Part shown: positions 5,299 to 27,000 of the stretch, piece after piece
Numbering within the stretch: position 1 is the stretch's first letter
Layout: every line of letters begins with the position of its first letter
Source of the DNA: Chitinophagaceae bacterium
GTDB lineage: Bacteria > Bacteroidota > Bacteroidia > Chitinophagales > Chitinophagaceae
Direction of reading: 5' to 3'
NCBI GenBank assembly: GCA_947447465.1
Contig: CANFKE010000010.1
Span: 31,093 to 95,092, forward strand
DNA: 64,000 bases
The notes under the pieces: model-generated
What the model was told of the DNA's origin: nothing
The model's input: the letters and a program-made list of their open reading frames with translations, nothing else
The model's database searches: none
Translations under genes and position numbers: made by a program

Positions 5299-6576
5299 TT
5301 ATAGTTCAGGATACAGCGGGAAGCTCTTCATGTATTCATTCACTTCACCTTTTACAGATGCAATGGTAGCCTCATTGTCAGCATCCATCAATACGCGGTC
5401 AATCCAGTTCACTATCTGCGGCATATCAGTTTCCTTCATGCCACGTGTAGTTACTGCAGGTACACCTACTCTTATGCCCGATGTGATGAATGGAGATTTG
5501 TCATCAAATGGGACCATGTTCTTATTGATAGTGATATCAGCCTTTACGAGTGTGTTTTCAGACTTCTTACCGCTGATACCCTTGTTGCGAAGGTCGATCA
5601 ATAACAGGTGGTTATCAGTTCCACCCGATACGATATCATATCCCTTGCTGTTGAAAGCAGTTGCCAATGCCTGAGCATTGCTGATCACCTGCTTGGCATA
5701 GGTTGTAAATCCTTCTGACAAGATCTCGTGGAACGCTACTGCTTTAGCTGCAATAACATGCTCCAGTGGTCCGCCCTGTGTGCCAGGGAACACAGCCAGA
5801 TCTATCATCTGACTCAATAAGCGGGTTTCGCCTTTTGGTCCCTTTACTCCCCATGTGTTCTCAAAATCATTCCTCATCATGATAAGACCACCACGAGGAC
5901 CACGCAATGTTTTATGTGTAGTTGTAGTTACGAAGTGACAATGATCAAAAGGGTCATTGAGTATGCCTTTGGCTATAAGTCCGGCAGGATGCGAAATGTC
6001 GGCCATAACCAACGCACCTACTTTATCTGCTATGGCACGAATGCGGGCATAATCCCAATCTCGGCTATAAGCAGATGCGCCGCAGATGATGAGCTTTGGC
6101 TTGTGCTCATTGGCCTGCTTTTCCATCATATCATAGTCAACGAGACCGGTTTCTTTATGAACGCCATAATGAACAGCCTTGTAGAGTTTACCTGAAAAAT
6201 TAACCGGTGAACCATGTGTAAGGTGTCCACCCATGCTCAGATCAAGACCCAGAATAGTATCTCCCGGCTGCAGTATCGCCAGCATTAACGCAGCATTGGC
6301 CTGCGCTCCGCTATGTGGTTGCACATTGGCATAGGTAGCACCAAATATTTCTTTAGCTCTGTCTATAGCCAGTTGTTCACTCTTATCTACCACTTCGCAA
6401 CCACCGTAGTATCTCTTACCAGGATAACCTTCAGCATACTTATTGGTCATAACACCTCCCATTGCCTGCATTACCTGCATGCTTGTGAAATTCTCAGAAG
6501 CTATCAGTTCCAGACCGTGGCGCTGGCGTTGCAGTTCTTCATTTATGAGGTCAAATATGGCCGTATCTCTTGTCAT
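5299..6576 (-). CDS. glyA: Serine hydroxymethyltransferase
   Basis: [29 protein letters not shown] motif [15 protein letters not shown]. Confidence 0.97.
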
Positions 6577-17464: not shown

Positions 17465-18868
17465 TTATTTCTTCTTTGGAGTTGGCTTGGTGGCTTTTGG
17501 CTGTCCCTTATCACCCTTTGCTTCAGGAGCCTTACCCTTGTTCTCTTCAGATTTTGGCAAATAATAAACTACCAGACGGTTTTCCTTGGTCAGGTATTTA
17601 TTGGCCACTCTTTTGATGTCTTCCTTGGTCACTTTCTTATAACGGTCCAATTCTGTATTGATCAGATTGGCATCGCCCTGGAAAGTATAATAAGTAGCCA
17701 GGTTAGTAGCTACACCAATGTCTTTCTGGTTCTGATTGATGAAATCATTTTCAGCCTGATTCTGCAACTTGATATATTCTTCATCGCTGATACCTTCTTT
17801 CTTTACTTTTTCTATTTCCGCAAGCATAGACTGCTCCAGATCTGCCGCCTTGATACCTACATTAGCAATACCCAGCATAATGTTAAGTCCCGGTGCTTCA
17901 TTACCCAGGTCGAAAGCCGCTGCCTGAACAGCTTTCTGCTGCTTGTCAACGATCTCTTTTTCAAAACGTGAGCTCTTACCCTGAGACAACAACTGAGTCA
18001 GCAACTGAAGTGCATAATAGTCGTCAGTGCCCTGCTTAGGGGTGTGGTAAGCTACTATTACTGCAGGCAACTGCACATTGTCGTAGAAGTTAACACGTCT
18101 TTCAGCGGTCTGCTCCGGCTCTACTACTGTAGGGCGTGGAATGGCCATAGTACCCTTTGGTATATCACCATAGTACTTAGCGATAAGGCTCTTTGCCTGA
18201 TCTTCTGTGAAATCTCCTGATATGACCAATACCGCATTGTTAGGTACGTAGAACGTCTTGTAGAAATTCATGAACTCACCCAGTGTGGCCTGATCTATGT
18301 ATTGTTCCTTACCAATAGGACTCCATTTGTAAGGATAAGTAGTATAGGCATTTTCAAATATTACATTGATCAACTGGCCATAAGGACGGTTGTCATAGCT
18401 CTGCTTCTTTTCTTCCTTTACTACTTTACGCTGTGTTTCTACACCAATATCATCGATCTTAGCATGCAACATACGCTCTGATTCCATCCACAAAGCCATT
18501 TCCAACTGGTTAGAAGGCAATATTTCGAAATAGAAAGTACGGTCTTGAGTAGTATTGGCGTTCAATTGGCCTCCGGCTGCCTGAATGAATTTCATATATT
18601 CACCACGCTTGATGTTGTCACTACCTTCAAAAAGCAGGTGCTCAAAGAAGTGCGCGAAACCCGTACGCTGCGGATCTTCGTTTTTAGATCCTACATGGTA
18701 CATAACAGACACTGCTACTATAGGGGTAGAGTGGTCTTCCTGCAGGATCACGTGAAGCCCGTTGGGCAAATTGTATTCGGTAAATTTGATCGTGGCTTTA
18801 GCTTGCTGTGCACCCATGGTGAGCATAGAAGCTCCCAGCAGCAGGCCATAAAAAGCATTTCGCTTCAT
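17465..18868 (-). CDS. M16 family zinc metallopeptidase (catalytic subunit)
   Basis: HFFEHLLFEG (HxxEH), EVIKGRVVKEEKK-like downstream region, signal peptide. Confidence 0.92.
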   Translation of the reverse strand: MKRNAFYGLLLGASMLTMGAQQAKATIKFTEYNLPNGLHVILQEDHSTPIVAVSVMYHVGSKNEDPQRTGFAHFFEHLLFEGSDNIKRGEYMKFIQAAGGQLNANTTQDRTFYFEILPSNQLEMALWMESERMLHAKIDDIGVETQRKVVKEEKKQSYDNRPYGQLINVIFENAYTTYPYKWSPIGKEQYIDQATLGEFMNFYKTFYVPNNAVLVISGDFTEDQAKSLIAKYYGDIPKGTMAIPRPTVVEPEQTAERRVNFYDNVQLPAVIVAYHTPKQGTDDYYALQLLTQLLSQGKSSRFEKEIVDKQQKAVQAAAFDLGNEAPGLNIMLGIANVGIKAADLEQSMLAEIEKVKKEGISDEEYIKLQNQAENDFINQNQKDIGVATNLATYYTFQGDANLINTELDRYKKVTKEDIKRVANKYLTKENRLVVYYLPKSEENKGKAPEAKGDKGQPKATKPTPKKK

Positions 18869-19019
18869 AAATAGTTGAAATTTGCGTCAAAAATAGTCAT
18901 TGACGGCATATGTAGGTGGTATCCCCCTAAAAATTCCCCCTATTTATTCTACGCTTTTTTGTTGTTGCTGTTTTTATATTTGTCCTTAGTTACATGTATT
19001 TGATTCTCGTAGTTTTGGC

Positions 19020-19091
19020 TCTGCTCGCTGTAGTCTGTCAATGGACTTCGCTCAGCATATATTTTTTTGGGAACTCTACGGCGAGCGGGGG
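19020..19091. repeat. Palindromic intergenic repeat, copy 1 (5'-degenerate)
   Basis: TCTGCTCGCTGTAGTCTGTCAATGGACTTCGCTCAGCATATA..TTGGGAACTCTACGGCGAGCGGGGG; matches copies 2 and 3. Confidence 0.85.
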
Positions 19092-19229
19092 AATTAGCAG
19101 TAATTAGGAGATCAGGTGCAAAAATTGTAATGTATAGAAAAAAGAATAGTAGTGGAACTGACTTAATCAATAACTTTAAAGAGAATATCCAACAATATAT
19201 CTTTGAAAATTTTGTAACCCAATATTTTT

Positions 19230-19757
19230 ATGGTAATACTCAACCTCAATATAAGTCGCAGTAGTATAATTAGTATATATATAAGCTTGGCATTAATTTT
19301 CACAAGCTGTTTGACCAACAGACATAAAAGTCACTCATTTTCATCGAACAACAGAATAGTCTATCATGTTTTTGATTCATTAGAACAAATATTGTGTAAG
19401 AGTATTGAAGATATAAAAAGGCGGCATAATGGTAATTGTAGTTCAATCTGCGTTACAATATCACCCTCTGGTAACTACCTTAAGCCTTATAGTGATCAGG
19501 GCATTTATAAATATAGCATTAATGTATTTTATGCTTTGCCAATTTCAAGGAAGCCCATATTAGATGCAGCTGACAGGTATATACAAATTTGTGATAATGC
19601 GTATCCCGTTTATTTTTATAGTTTAGATGATATTTTTGGGTTGCCAGATTCAATGAAAAACTTAAAAAGTGATATACCTCATTTAAGTGACTACTCCTCT
19701 GATTTATATCTTGAAGTAAACATGTCAACAAAAAAAGTGTTACATAGGTCTCATTAA
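19230..19757 (+). CDS. Uncharacterised lipoprotein, family A, paralog 1
   Basis: Signal/lipobox-like LALIFTSC; paralogous to the next ORF. Confidence 0.7.
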   Translation: MVILNLNISRSSIISIYISLALIFTSCLTNRHKSHSFSSNNRIVYHVFDSLEQILCKSIEDIKRRHNGNCSSICVTISPSGNYLKPYSDQGIYKYSINVFYALPISRKPILDAADRYIQICDNAYPVYFYSLDDIFGLPDSMKNLKSDIPHLSDYSSDLYLEVNMSTKKVLHRSH

Positions 19758-19767
19758 AAATATCTAT

Positions 19768-20310
19768 ATGTTGTTTATTAATAATAGGTTAGTTAATGTC
19801 ATTATTCTAGTATTGTTAGCTGAACTTTCGTGCAATCTTGGGTGCATGAAAGTAGTAACTAAGAAAACTGGTTCTCAAGTCAATTCTAATTATACCATCT
19901 ACAATGTGTTTGATTCATTAGATTATTTACTCTGCACTAAAGTTGAGGATATAAAAGCATCTTTTCCTCAGAATAGAGATTCAATTTTCATAGTCATACA
20001 ACCATCAGGTAATTTTAACAGTCTAGAAGTTTATGAAAGTGGGGAAATGTATAAATACAAAATTGGCGTTTTTTGTAAGCAAACACAACAACAAAATTTA
20101 ATAATAAAGTCAGCCCGGAGAAAAATAAAGATATGTGGCAACCTGTATCCAATATACTTCAATTATATAGATAATATCTTTTGTTTGCCTGATTCACTAA
20201 AAAATAAAATGCTTCAAACCGATTATTTTGTCAATAATTTAAATATGTACAAAGATAAATACATAGAGGTTGATATGATTGGTAAAAAAATAATATGTGA
20301 TTGTAAATAA
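19768..20310 (+). CDS. Uncharacterised lipoprotein, family A, paralog 2
   Basis: Shares VFDSL..LLC..VEDIK, QPSGNF, YKYKIGVF, KICGNLYPIYF..IDNIFCLPDSLKN with the preceding ORF. Confidence 0.7.
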   Translation: MLFINNRLVNVIILVLLAELSCNLGCMKVVTKKTGSQVNSNYTIYNVFDSLDYLLCTKVEDIKASFPQNRDSIFIVIQPSGNFNSLEVYESGEMYKYKIGVFCKQTQQQNLIIKSARRKIKICGNLYPIYFNYIDNIFCLPDSLKNKMLQTDYFVNNLNMYKDKYIEVDMIGKKIICDCK

Positions 20311-20351
20311 TTGTATTGTAACATTCGTAAACAAATTGCTTTTTTAAAATC

Positions 20352-20453
20352 CATGCTGGGCGTAGTCTTCTCGACTACGCCCCTGCTCGCTGTAGTCTGT
20401 CAATAGACTTCGCTCAGCATACAGTTTTTTGGGAAGACTACTGCGAGCGGGGG
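20352..20453. repeat. Palindromic intergenic repeat, copy 2
   Basis: CATGCTGGGCGTAGTCTTCTCGACTACGCCCCTGCTCGCTGTAGTCTGTCAATAGACTTCGCTCAGCATACAGTTTTTTGGGAAGACTACTGCGAGCGGGGG. Confidence 0.95.
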
Positions 20454-20558
20454 TATGTCTAAACAAATTATGAAAAAAACTATTTAATTTACAAAAAGCC
20501 AGTATTTAAGCGAACGAAGTAATCAAATTGGTAGAATGAAAAAACGCAACGGCTTATT

Positions 20559-21038
20559 ATGAAAAAGTGTATTATATTTTTATTGGTATTCATTTCTTGG
20601 ATTAATTCAAATGGACAATCCAAATTTATTCCCTGGGAAGATGTAAAATGTAATTGTGATTCGATAATCAATGCTTGTTATAAGAATCCTTGTACCGGGC
20701 TTTCTCTATTGTCTGATTCTAGTTATTTCTTTTATAAAATGAATCCATATTGTTTTAACAGAGTATGCAATTACTATTATCAAGGCACTAAGATTAGCCA
20801 TGCGCAATATCTTGATTTTAATAATGTTGTAAACTATATAAACTTATCATTAGGGAAATCACTTTATAAAGTTGACTTATTGCTTTGGATGAAATATTAT
20901 GGATGTCTAGATACTCATAATTTAACTCAACGTATATATGGTGAGTTCGATAAATTTGAGCGACATGAGATTAGAAATTGGAATCACAATGGGTTGAAGG
21001 ATAAAGTTTTTGACTCAACAATTTTATGGCAGAAATAG
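20559..21038 (+). CDS. Uncharacterised Cys-rich secreted protein
   Basis: Signal peptide MKKCIIFLLVFISWINSNGQ; many Cys in mature part. Confidence 0.65.
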   Translation: MKKCIIFLLVFISWINSNGQSKFIPWEDVKCNCDSIINACYKNPCTGLSLLSDSSYFFYKMNPYCFNRVCNYYYQGTKISHAQYLDFNNVVNYINLSLGKSLYKVDLLLWMKYYGCLDTHNLTQRIYGEFDKFERHEIRNWNHNGLKDKVFDSTILWQK

Positions 21039-21131
21039 CAAGATTTTGAGTTATTTCTAATATGCAGTAGTTAACAATGAAAATTATCTTTAGTGCCTTT
21101 ATTCAGCTTGCCATAGTCTATATAAAATAAC

Positions 21132-21232
21132 CATGCTGGGTGTAGTCTTCTCGACTACGCCCCTGCTCGCTGTAGTCTGTCAATAGACTTCGCTCAGCAT
21201 ACATTTTTTGGGGAAGACTACGGCGAGCGGGG
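21132..21232. repeat. Palindromic intergenic repeat, copy 3
   Basis: Near-identical to copy 2. Confidence 0.95.
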
Positions 21233-21259
21233 TTATGTTCAGAAAAAATAGAATAAAAT

Positions 21260-21760
21260 ATGAAAAAAAACGCAATTGCTTTCCTTCTATTTTCAGCATC
21301 ATATTGTTCTGCGCAAAGGCTAATTCCATTTTATGACAGTGTGAATAAATTTCATATATCATATCCTGAAAGTTGGTCGACTGCATATAGATTAATAGAA
21401 AGTAGTGGACTTTCTTCTTTTAAAGATGAAATAGGAGAACACAAGAAGAAATCATTTGAAAGGGTTGAGGTTGTTAAGGATAATCAAATGAGTATGGCAT
21501 TACTCTTAGAGCTAGGGTTGGTAAATACATACTATTCAAATTCCAAGAGCAGGCCTAATAGGTCTAATTTAAAATACATTGTTAATAGTTATGAACACTT
21601 AATGGCTAACGGAAAAGACACTATCAATTTAGTTGATATTAAGGTTTATATCTGCCATAATACAGATATTTTTATTTTATTCAGTACCTGTCTTGCGAAA
21701 GATTTTGATAGATACCGCAAACTATATGTAGAAATTGCCAATTCAGTCTATTTTGATTAA
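21260..21760 (+). CDS. Uncharacterised secreted protein (FHISYPESW motif, PsbP/DcrB-like)
   Basis: Signal peptide MKKNAIAFLLFSASYCSAQ; FHISYPESWSTAY. Confidence 0.65.
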   Translation: MKKNAIAFLLFSASYCSAQRLIPFYDSVNKFHISYPESWSTAYRLIESSGLSSFKDEIGEHKKKSFERVEVVKDNQMSMALLLELGLVNTYYSNSKSRPNRSNLKYIVNSYEHLMANGKDTINLVDIKVYICHNTDIFILFSTCLAKDFDRYRKLYVEIANSVYFD

Positions 21761-21763
21761 CCC

Positions 21764-21826
21764 CATGCTGGGCGTAGTCTTCTCGACTACGCCCCACGCG
21801 GCTGGCGGTCTCTGACCGCCGTCATG
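21764..21826. repeat. Palindromic intergenic repeat, copy 4 (first hairpin conserved, second half replaced)
   Basis: CATGCTGGGCGTAGTCTTCTCGACTACGCCCC then GGCGGTCTCTGACCGCC hairpin. Confidence 0.85.
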
Positions 21827-22109
21827 GTCTGCATTTAAACCACACTCACCCACAAAAATAATTGCCCTCAAAAACAACTTTAAGTACAGCCGTACAACCC
21901 GTTGAACGTCCAAACTTTACAACAAGATGTACACATTTTTGTGAATATCTTTATTTGCCTGATCTGGAATACCACATTAATTTGCACCCGATTAGGCTAA
22001 CCACTTGGTCGTTCTTTGACTTATGAACCCTTATTAAACTTCACCAGATCGACTGTCATGGTGAGCAGCAATCCTGAGGCTCTCGAAGGGCGTACCACGA
22101 CAGCCACAC

Positions 22110-22935
22110 GGGACGTATTCGTTATGAGATAACCAATGTGTAAACCTATTTAGCGACAAGACACAGACAAAAAAGTGGAAGAAAAAGTAGCAGTATGTGG
22201 CAAAAAGTGGCAGAAAGTGGCAGTTTTCGGCAATTTGTTAAAACACCCTGAAACCTATACCCACAAAGCATTTCACCCAAAACACCCTTCACAAAATTGC
22301 CACTTTTATTAAAAACTGCCACTTTTCTGAATCACACGAAATATCCACCGAATGTCACGGTGAGTCCCTCGAACCGCGACATTCGCACGGGACGTATTCG
22401 TTTTGAGATAACCAATGTGTAAACCTATTTAGTGATGAGACAAACTGCCACTTTTCTGAATCGCACGAAATATCCACCCGTATGTCACGGTGAGGCCCTC
22501 GAACCGCGACATTAGCACGGGACGTATTCGTTTTGAAATAACAAATATGTAAACCTATTTAGCGACAAGACACAGACAAAAAGTGGAAGAAAAAGTAGCA
22601 GTATGTGGCAAAAAGTGGCAGAAAGTGGCAGTTTTCGGCAATTTGTTAAAACACCCTGAAACCTATACCCACAAAGCATTTCACCCAAAACACCCCTCAC
22701 AAAATTGCCACTTTTATTAAAAACTGCCACTTTTCTGAATCGCACAAAATATCCACCGAATGTCACGGTGAAGCCCTCGAACCGCGACATTCGCACGGGA
22801 CGTATTCGTTTTGAAATAACAAATATGTAAACCTATTTAGCGACAAGCAACTGCCACTTTTCTTAACAAAAGTGGCAATAACTGGCAGAAAGTGGAAGGA
22901 AAGTAGCAGAAAGTGGCAATTTGTTAAAATGCCCG
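22110..22935. repeat. Non-coding tandem repeat array (units of ~279, 130, 278 bp and a partial)
   Basis: GGGACGTATTCG recurs at 22110, 22389, 22519, 22797, each followed by near-identical sequence; unit 2 lacks ~149 bp. Confidence 0.9.
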
Positions 22936-23133
22936 TAACCCTTACCCGGAAAGAGATACAGCCCCAAAGTGCCCAAAAAAACCACTCAATTCGTGAAAAT
23001 CATCAAAAAGTGGAAGTTTTCACTCTTAGGTGGCACAAGTGAGTACCGACCTCTAGCTCCACCAATTTCCATCTGGCTCGTTCTATCCCATTGACCTGCA
23101 ACATTTAACTTTTACCATACCATCATAACCACC

Positions 23134-23148: not shown

Positions 23149-23802
23149 ATGATCACTACAGTTATATATGATATGGATGGCCTGTTATTAGATACAGAGC
23201 CACTTTGGGGAGAGAGCATGCTGCGCGTAGCAGGTAAGAACAACATTAATATTACCGGCAAACAGTTTAAAGAAACAACCGGGTTGCGCATATACGAGGT
23301 CACCGACCACTGGGCCATTCATTACCCCTGGGTAGGGAAGAGTGCTAAAGAGGTTGCCGACGAGATACTCGAAGACATAATAGAGTCCTCTAAAAAGCAT
23401 GGTATGGTGCTGAAGGGGGTAGAGCAGTCACTGCAACTATTAAGAAAGAACAATTATAAGATAGGCCTCGCATCATCGTCTGCCAAACGCATGATTGATG
23501 AGCTTATTGCCCATTTCGGTCTCACCCATTACTTCGACGAGATCACCTCTGCCGATGCAGTAGAACTAGGTAAACCTCATCCGGCAGTATTCCTGCATTG
23601 TGCACAATTGCTGGGGTCTAAACCACATGAATGTCTGGTATTGGAAGATTCGGTAAATGGTATGATAGCAGGTAAGGCGGCCCGCATGAAAGTGGTAGTC
23701 GTACCTGATGCTTTGCATTTCAATGATCCCCGCTTTGCTATAGCAGATGCCAAACTCAATAGTCTGGAAGAATTTGATCTGGACCTTGTTAGCCGTTTTT
23801 GA
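23149..23802 (+). CDS. hxpB: HAD-superfamily phosphatase, hexitol phosphatase HxpB-like
   Basis: YDMDGLLLDTEPLW, LASSSAKRMI, KPHPAVFL, LVLEDSVNGMIAGKAA. Confidence 0.85.
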   Translation: MITTVIYDMDGLLLDTEPLWGESMLRVAGKNNINITGKQFKETTGLRIYEVTDHWAIHYPWVGKSAKEVADEILEDIIESSKKHGMVLKGVEQSLQLLRKNNYKIGLASSSAKRMIDELIAHFGLTHYFDEITSADAVELGKPHPAVFLHCAQLLGSKPHECLVLEDSVNGMIAGKAARMKVVVVPDALHFNDPRFAIADAKLNSLEEFDLDLVSRF

Positions 23803-24021: not shown

Positions 24022-27000
24022 TTATCTCAGTAATGTCAGATTCCCCTGGTGGTGTTCTTTCTGCCCATCTTTGAAAGTGGCATCTATAGAATATACGAAT
24101 ACGCCCTCTGGCTGAGGCTCATTGTTGTACTTACCATCCCATCCACGACCATCAACACTTGTTGTTTCGAATATCAGATTTCCCCATCGGTTGTAAATGG
24201 CCATCCTGAATTGCGTCAATCCTCTTGATAGCCATTCGCGTGGCAGGAAGTAATCATTGATACCATCACCATTAGGCGTGAATACATTCGGAATATTCAG
24301 GTAACAGTCATTGGCAACGACCACTTCATCCGATGATTCACAACCTCCAATGTTCACTGTAGCAGTGTAATTGCCGGGCTCAGCTATAGATATTTGTGGT
24401 GTGGTCTCGCCCGTATTCCATACCCAACGGGCATTAGGATTTGTGCCATTGCGGTAGTCATAAAGTACTACCGGTGCTGATGCTCCTATACAGATAGATG
24501 TATCCGGTCCAAGGTCTATCAGCGGGTAAGGTATCACATTGATTTTGATACTTGCGCTAGTGTCTGGGCAGGCTCTGTACAGTGCTTTGATAGTAACGGT
24601 GAATGTTCCCGCATTCTCATAAGAGTGTGTAACTGGGTTCACATCTCTGATACTATCCGTATTACTGAATGTCCACAATACACCTGTATTGCCCTGTGCA
24701 TCATACTGTCCTACAAATGTAATTGCGCCACCTTTACACAACACACTATCACTCGATGCCAATCCAACACCACTTATAGGATCGACCTGCAATACTTTGG
24801 TAGCCGTATCGAAACATGGTACGAAATTGGAAACCGCAAGGACAACATTGTAAGTACCCGGTGTGTTGTAGGTATGTACATTGTTCATAGCAGGTGAGGT
24901 GGTCCCGTCTCCGAATACCCAATTATAGGTCAGTAATGTACCTGCTGATGTGTTGGTGAACGTTACAGGTTTGCCAATACACAAGAAGCTGTCAGGGCTG
25001 GCAGTAAAGCCTGCATTGACCAGATTGTCCAAATTAATAGTATGTGTAACGCTGTCAAAACACCTTGTATTGGTGATCACCAGTTTTACGTCATATACCC
25101 CCGGTGCAGTGTACACATGCGTAGGGTTGGTAGCAGTGCTGGTGGTGCCATCTCCCCAATACCAGGTATAGGTAAGATCTGATGCCGGCCACGAAGTGTT
25201 GGTACATACTATGGTATCACCCGCACAATTTTTGGTCAAAACATAGGTGTATCCCGGTATGATAGGTGGTGCATCAAGTGTATCAGGTCCAAAAGTGTTA
25301 GATACGCAAGCCGCAGTAGTGTAAGCGATGATGTTGGAGTAGATACCTTCACACAGATTAGGTATGACTATAGTACTGTCTGATCCTACATTTACACTGA
25401 TGATCGGTTGCGGAACGCCATTCAATGAATATTTAATGGTATCCGTTTGCGATGGGTGCAATCCATAAAGTGTTATCGTTCCGTCGCAGAAACCACATTT
25501 GGTCGGGTTGGTATATTTGACATTACGTAAAGTAAACGGAGGGTTTACCAAAGTAAATGGCCCTACAGCAGTGGTAGCGCAGGTGCTGAAAACTGCTATT
25601 ATATTGCTATAAACTCCCTGATCCAAACCTGTCAGCACTACCTTGCCTGTTGCAGATACTACCAATACAATAGGTGGTTGCGGAACGCCGTTGAGTGAAT
25701 ACTTAATAGTATCCGCATCTCCGGGGTATAAATTACTGATGGTTATTGTTCCGTCGTGTGCGGCACAATAGGTAGGGGAGGTAAATGTAGCCGTTGGTAC
25801 CAATAGCGGCGGATTGGTCAATGTTATCGGGCCTAGCGGGCTGGTCACACAATTGGCATACGTAGCAGTGATATTGGTATATACGCCTGCTCCCAGTCCG
25901 GTAATCGTTACAGTTCCGGTTGCGGATACAACGAACGTTTGGAAAGGCTGTAAAATACCATTCTTATAAAATTTGATGGTATCCAGATCTCCCGGGTGCA
26001 GGTTGCTGATCGTTATTGACCCATCAAAATGGCCACAGTAACTAGGATTGGTAAATGTAGCCGATGTCGCTAGAATTGGCGGATTGACCAATGTATATGG
26101 TCCGATAGGGGAGGTAGCACATGGTCCGTATGTCGTAGTAATATTGGTATATACACCTGCTCCAAGTCCGGTCAAAGTAACAGATCCTGCGGCAGAGACT
26201 GTGATCACAATGTATGGCTGCAATACACCGTTGAAATAATATCTGATGGTATCCGCATCGCCCGGGTGAAGTCCGCTAATATTGATACTACCGTCGTTGT
26301 GACCACAATAGCTGGGGTTTACTATGGTAGCAGTGGGCACCGGAATTGGCGGATTGACTAATGTTACAGGGCCAATAGCTGGGGTGACACAAGGACCAAA
26401 GGTGGCAGTGATATTAGTGTAAACTCCCGCTCCCAGATTAGGTATCACTATACTGCCTGAAGCATTTACTGTTACAATAAGAACCGGTTGCAATACACCG
26501 TTCAGATAATACCTGATAGTATCCGCATCTCCCGCGTGAAGATTGCTTACTGTAATACTACCATCGTAATGGCCACAATAGCTTGGATTGGTAAATGTGA
26601 ACGTAGGTGTAGGTATAGGTGGTGTTACCAACGTAACAGGACCAACCGGGCTTGAAGCACAGATACCATAGGTAGCTGTTATATTACTGTAAGTGCCGGC
26701 ATACAGGTTGACGATCGAAACATTGCTATCTGCCGGAACCGTGAATACCTGTGATGGCTGAGGCACACCGTTAAAGCTGAATTTGATCGTGTCAATATAT
26801 CCGGGATGCAGATGATGGATCGTAATTGAACCATCATTATGACCACAATAGGTAGGGTTAGTGAATGTAACTGAAATAGGAGGTACGGCAGGATTGACCA
26901 GCGTAAATGGTCCTATTGCAGGAGATACACAATTACCATATGAGATAGTGATGTTGCTGTAAACACCGGCAAGTAAACCTGTTAATGTTACTGTTCCAGC

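Follow-up and report, generated by a model that had tools for sequence, protein, structure and literature searches.

Palindromic repeats matching the ends of RAYT elements alternate with small low-GC genes in a variable region of a Chitinophagaceae genome

The gene cluster between the M16 peptidase and HAD hydrolase genes

The window analyzed here is a stretch of 64,000 nucleotides from an uncultured Chitinophagaceae bacterium (contig C10, positions 31093-95092; the draft genome consists of 70 contigs totaling 3.89 Mb and is 92% complete). Within it, an M16 peptidase gene, whose nearest named relatives come from Chitinophagaceae and Bacteroidetes MAGs, and a HAD hydrolase gene are separated by 4.3 kb, and this gap is filled by a cluster of genes and palindromic repeats. 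The genes and the borders of the region are the following:

17465-18868, minus strand: M16 peptidase gene, left border of the variable region
18946-23103, no strand: variable region between the M16 peptidase and HAD hydrolase genes
19230-19757, plus strand: ORF1, 175 aa, predicted lipoprotein/exported protein, GC 31%, paralogue of ORF2
19768-20310, plus strand: ORF2, 180 aa, predicted exported protein, GC 28%
20559-21038, plus strand: ORF3, 159 aa, predicted signal peptide, GC 29%
21260-21760, plus strand: ORF4, 166 aa, predicted signal peptide, GC 31%
23149-23802, plus strand: HAD hydrolase gene, right border of the variable region

The four ORFs are co-directional and have a GC content of 28-31%, compared to 35-48% for nearly all the other ORFs of the window. 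Export signals were predicted in them by eye, and the codon-position substitution patterns obtained from the comparison with their homologues are those of real genes. None of the four matched a Pfam (gathering cut-off), NCBIfam, or PADLOC family, in agreement with the sequence-only reading, which had described them as genes lacking a recognized family. The same reading had considered them unrelated; ORF1 and ORF2 are tandem paralogues sharing 38% identity, and thus not all four genes are unrelated. The structural model of ORF2 (pLDDT 69) did not retrieve any fold match from the PDB, and that of ORF4 (pLDDT 50) was too poor for a structure search.

As for their phylogenetic distribution, ORF2 relatives were found in only five of 297 genomes of the family (G168, G091, G267, G173, and G237), and in an order-wide sample of 399 genomes the ORF1/ORF2 family was retrieved from the window genome only. 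ORF3 has homologues forming a tandem pair in G168:C1 (43% and 38% identity). Another family of palindromes, CCATTGTTGGCGTCCCCGCCAACAATC, flanks the ORF3-family tandem genes of G168 (L155:4600-8830). Furthermore, a short DTSKVLG/DASHVLG motif appears by eye to be common to P0001 and P0002, between which BLASTP did not detect any relationship, and no weight was therefore given to the motif. Outside the cluster, a gliding-motility-type surface protein gene (1553 aa) contains 270-bp tandem repeats at window positions 25406-26589.

Modules of the repeats and their relationship with RAYT elements

The sequence-only reading had depicted the cluster as four co-directional ORFs punctuated by four copies of one palindromic repeat of about 100 bp. 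The ORFs and the repeats do lie at those places; the repeats, in turn, do not represent a single family, since the four "copies" resolve into two modules, A (33 nt, CCATGCTGGGCGTAGTCTTCTCGACTACGCCCC) and B (about 71 nt, with the 3' end GGAAGACTACkGCGAGCGGGG). The module composition is B for rep1, A+B for rep2 and rep3, and A followed by a second hairpin, C, for rep4, which therefore has only the 33-nt A in common with the other copies:

19020-19091, plus strand: rep1, consisting of module B alone, a right-end type REP that shares 91-93% identity with the B of rep2 and rep3
20351-20383, plus strand: module A of rep2, left-end type hairpin
20384-20453, plus strand: module B of rep2, right-end type, sharing 82% identity over 61 nt with the right end of the G222 RAYT element
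21131-21163, plus strand: module A of rep3, left-end type
21164-21232, plus strand: module B of rep3, right-end type, aligned with RAYT right ends
21763-21823, plus strand: rep4, A+C hairpin doublet, left-end type, with the structure common to RAYT termini; it starts a dispersed repeat
21762-22953, plus strand: composite dispersed repeat, with copies on contigs C2 and C3

According to this composition, the array reads B-ORF1-ORF2-A / B-ORF3-A / B-ORF4-A, each gene unit having B always in front and A always behind. The near-identity of rep2 and rep3 was confirmed (96% over 101 nt), and the fourth copy, which had been placed 4 nt past a stop codon, begins with its module A 2 nt after the ORF4 stop. 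All the copies fold well as single strands (z from -3.6 to -6.1), and no shuffled sequence folded equally well. Moreover, rep4 forms the left border of a repeat of about 0.7-1.2 kb that is dispersed in the genome, with copies on C2 (94% identity over 682 bp) and C3 (85% over 567 bp). A separate dispersed repeat, made up of 101-nt and 266-nt units with GTGGCAGAAAGTGGCAG decamer-like runs, is clustered at window positions 22069-22953 and also occurs on contigs C2, C3, C25, C1, and C29. A likeness of the DNA just 3' of rep2 and rep3 (a vestigial ATGAAAAAAA) was set aside, being AT-rich and too weak to use.

The repeat family is palindromic, multi-copy, and extragenic, and it flanks genes for REP-associated tyrosine transposases (RAYTs), and these are two of the features by which REP/RAYT systems are recognized. 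In particular, the RAYT genes of the "STGYQI..." clade (scores of 86-107 bits, the NF047646 cut-off being 80), found in G222, G168, G297, G298, and on contig C54 of the window genome itself, carry inverted two-hairpin doublets on both flanks. A+C fits the same alignment as both flanks of these five genes; in the resulting consensus, 8 of the 17 pairs exhibit compensatory changes and 99.5% of the cells are paired; 0 of 500 shuffles did as well, and sliding the consensus by 1-3 columns as a control left 26-48% paired. In the sister species G222 and G301, the right end of the RAYT element has module B as its outer half, and B can be aligned over its length with the right ends of RAYT elements. 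As A is of the left-end type and B of the right-end type, rep2 and rep3 consist of a left and a right end without a transposase and, judging from these alignments, can be regarded as miniature REPIN/MITE-like elements with the two ends back to back. The GTAG of the REP foot motif GT[AG]G sits inside the stem of A (GGCGTAGTC) and not as a free foot; the Bacteroidetes TnpA-Y1 subclass 2.6 is described as lacking a canonical foot (PMC6006769).

Within the 92% complete draft, four NF047646 matches were retrieved, three of them above the cut-off; the RAYT on C54 belongs to the same clade and carries its own, different REP. The search of this genome for a RAYT cognate to B gave no result, and the cluster itself does not embed any RAYT gene. 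These data support the suggestion of the sequence-only reading that a MITE/REP family with a RAYT elsewhere in the genome might be involved.

Distribution of the repeats and rearrangements in related genomes

In the window genome, A+C is present at about 14 places (E<0.02), mostly in ordinary intergenic DNA, and leads a longer composite repeat at three of them. The full-length B occurs in three copies, all at the window cluster, plus one degenerate solo copy on C8. In a sample of 149 genomes of the family, no genome other than this one yielded a match to A+C or full B at E<1e-5. The REP of G222 is represented by 22 copies in G222 and by seven in the window genome, one of which is 98% identical over 59 nt. 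A scatter of the repeat over the genome, with no preference for this class of genes, together with independent inheritance of repeat and gene in relatives, had been named by the sequence-only reading as a refutation, and the outcome was mixed: A+C is scattered in this way, and almost all of the full B ends inspected, which are few, adjoin low-GC orphan genes. Likewise, the G222 REP copies that reach the outer right end lie beside low-GC orphan genes at three loci out of three (a small sample). In the window genome, a low-GC gene for an exported protein of 111 aa (L033:2208-2606) adjoins a RAYT, with A+C 5 nt past its stop.

An origin from plasmids or phages was rejected, as the repeat did not match any plasmid or phage, ORF2 and ORF4 did not match plasmids, and ORF4 did not match viral contigs. 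A known RNA was also discarded, Rfam having returned only a sub-threshold tpke11 match (21.9 against 43 bits).

The comparison with related species, which relies on draft genomes and few loci, revealed that the space between the M16 peptidase and HAD hydrolase genes is variable. In G222, with flanking proteins that share 92-95% identity with those of the window, the homology stops at 18945 and restarts at 23104; its spacer contains other repeats and a different secreted gene (145 aa) adjoining REP-type repeats. The spacer is nearly empty in two relatives, L065 and L066 (169 and 126 bp, respectively), is 905 bp long in L067, where it harbors a RAYT-like gene (58 bits, below the NF047646 cut-off of 80), and contains yet another gene set in G300. 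At L218 (G299:C159), the HAD gene is inverted, compared to the window, relative to the adjoining PKD-type surface protein gene.

The ORF4 homologue of G222 (ORF4', 56% identical) directly adjoins a RAYT, and in G168 a RAYT is flanked by an ORF4 homologue on one side and by a second, broken homologue on the other. The order is REP_L-RAYT-REP_R-ORF4'-REP_L in G222 and ORF4'-REP_L-RAYT-REP_R-other secreted gene (239 aa)-REP_L in G301. Between the two species, the RAYT block (843 bp, L154 4068-4910) is about 92-93% identical, as is the ORF4' block (5354-5691); the two blocks occur in swapped order, with the alignments ending at the REP outer ends. Moreover, the orthologous tRNA-Leu/DinB locus has the arrangement B-orphan gene-B in G222 and one degenerate solo B in the window genome. 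In the sister species, the palindromes thus adjoin small genes of other kinds and are found where blocks have been rearranged, which suggests that REPs may help to swap genes. Together with the different gene beside REPs in the G222 spacer, these cases lend indirect support to the cassette-like logic proposed by the sequence-only reading. REP and ORF4 are 28 nt apart upstream and 2 nt apart downstream in the window, compared to 170 and about 45 nt in G222; hence, the species do not share a fixed cassette end.

Possible explanations and significance

Direct observations are the identity of the repeats, the spacers that lack genes or carry different ones in relatives, and the sister-species blocks whose order is exchanged at REP ends. 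In our opinion, the palindromes are probably REP ends of RAYT elements, which punctuate a variable island of lineage-specific, low-GC genes for exported proteins and border blocks that are gained, lost, or reordered between species. REP ends would most probably be inserted by RAYT activity and would then serve as borders where small genes are added, lost, and reordered; we infer that the exchange, visible through its outcome alone, would occur mainly via homologous recombination between REP copies and/or through a RAYT acting in trans (by single-strand cleavage and joining). More tentatively, the genes might code for exported accessory or immunity-like proteins.

The closest known systems are REP/REPIN sequences with their RAYT (TnpA-REP), or REPtrons, and the Bacteroidetes-rich TnpA-Y1 subclasses 2.4/2.6 (PMC6006769), with which the locus shares short, dispersed intergenic palindromes, inverted around a Y1/HUH transposase gene and belonging to several families per genome. 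Unlike these systems, the repeats of the window alternate with small genes for exported proteins and have no transposase on site, and sister species display RAYT and gene blocks in swapped order. As in MITEs of IS200/IS605-type elements, rep2 and rep3 are both ends without a transposase, but these ends belong to a RAYT and not to an IS200/IS605 transposase. The class of repeat is therefore known, and its arrangement is unusual: our literature search did not retrieve any description of REPs as punctuation between exchangeable genes for exported proteins.

A quite plausible alternative, to which we assign a somewhat less than even chance, is that REP/REPIN elements just accumulate in a permissive low-GC island, with the genes arriving via ordinary horizontal transfer and the repeats having no part in their exchange. 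The scatter of A+C in ordinary intergenic DNA and the differing REP-to-gene distances in the window and G222 fit such an accumulation, as do published studies reporting neither RAYT gene mobility nor the transposition of REPtrons as units (PMC6006769, PMC8266576); on the other hand, the G222/G301 swap breaks where the REPs end, and the outer right ends in G222 adjoin low-GC orphan genes at all three loci of that small sample. From the alignments, the swap would be either at odds with the published immobility of RAYTs and REPtrons or a sign of REP-REP recombination.

A second possibility, doubtful on the present data, concerns the function of the genes and is compatible with REP ends acting as borders: they might be orphan immunity genes, as in the rAID arrays of Bacteroidales (PMC12247911). 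In such arrays, short low-GC genes point in one direction and are separated by conserved motifs, and the cluster resembles them in its repeat-separated, co-oriented genes of 159-180 codons; rAID arrays have two or more co-directional genes below 41% GC, and here all four are below this value (28-31%). In addition, relatives of ORF4 and ORF1/ORF2 in G091 and G168 lie directly downstream of large low-GC genes, as immunity genes do behind toxins. Candidate effectors of this kind, of no known family, are L156:5912-7378 (488 aa), L169:6953-8242 (429 aa, followed by tandem duplicated small genes), and L171:2447-3643. Nevertheless, these large genes did not match toxin families in Pfam, NCBIfam, PADLOC, or PDB sequences, the ORFs gave neither a family nor a solved structure that would connect them with immunity genes of known effectors, and ORF2 had no fold match. 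Unlike rAID arrays, the cluster lacks a tyrosine recombinase upstream (none was found on C10), and its intergenic repeat is a REP. With no toxin family recognized and the recombinase missing, the immunity role stays a lead.

A stronger version of gene exchange, which we deem improbable, would consider the RAYT elements of this clade as a gene-cassette system, whose HUH transposase cuts out, joins, and reorders REP-bounded small genes (orphan immunity genes or others for exported proteins) via single-stranded REP ends. Still less credible is that the repeats are kept as RNA hairpins behind genes; REPs have been hypothesized to act in transcription termination and mRNA stabilization (PMC3733652), and the hairpins fold strongly, but no T-run follows any repeat (0 terminator-like sites) and B stands before the genes, not after them. 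Lastly, the integron-type array with attC-like sites envisaged by the sequence-only reading can be dismissed almost entirely: co-oriented genes alternating with a structured repeat in constant orientation and with variable content do recall integron cassettes, but within the 92% complete assembly the four tyrosine recombinases are Xer-like or other (best TIGR02249 score of 128 against a cut-off of 265 bits), so that no IntI was detected, the attC core GTTRRRY is absent at every repeat, and the repeats are of a family linked to RAYT genes.

Returning to REP ends as borders of a variable island, RAYTs are seen as transposases that have been domesticated and that disseminate REP sequences, not genes. 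The alternation of RAYT-type ends with exchangeable genes, together with the swaps in sister species, turns gene shuffling by RAYT/REP into a directly testable question. If the genes were immunity factors, this would represent a second route, beside the rAID recombinase, to defence arrays in Bacteroidota.
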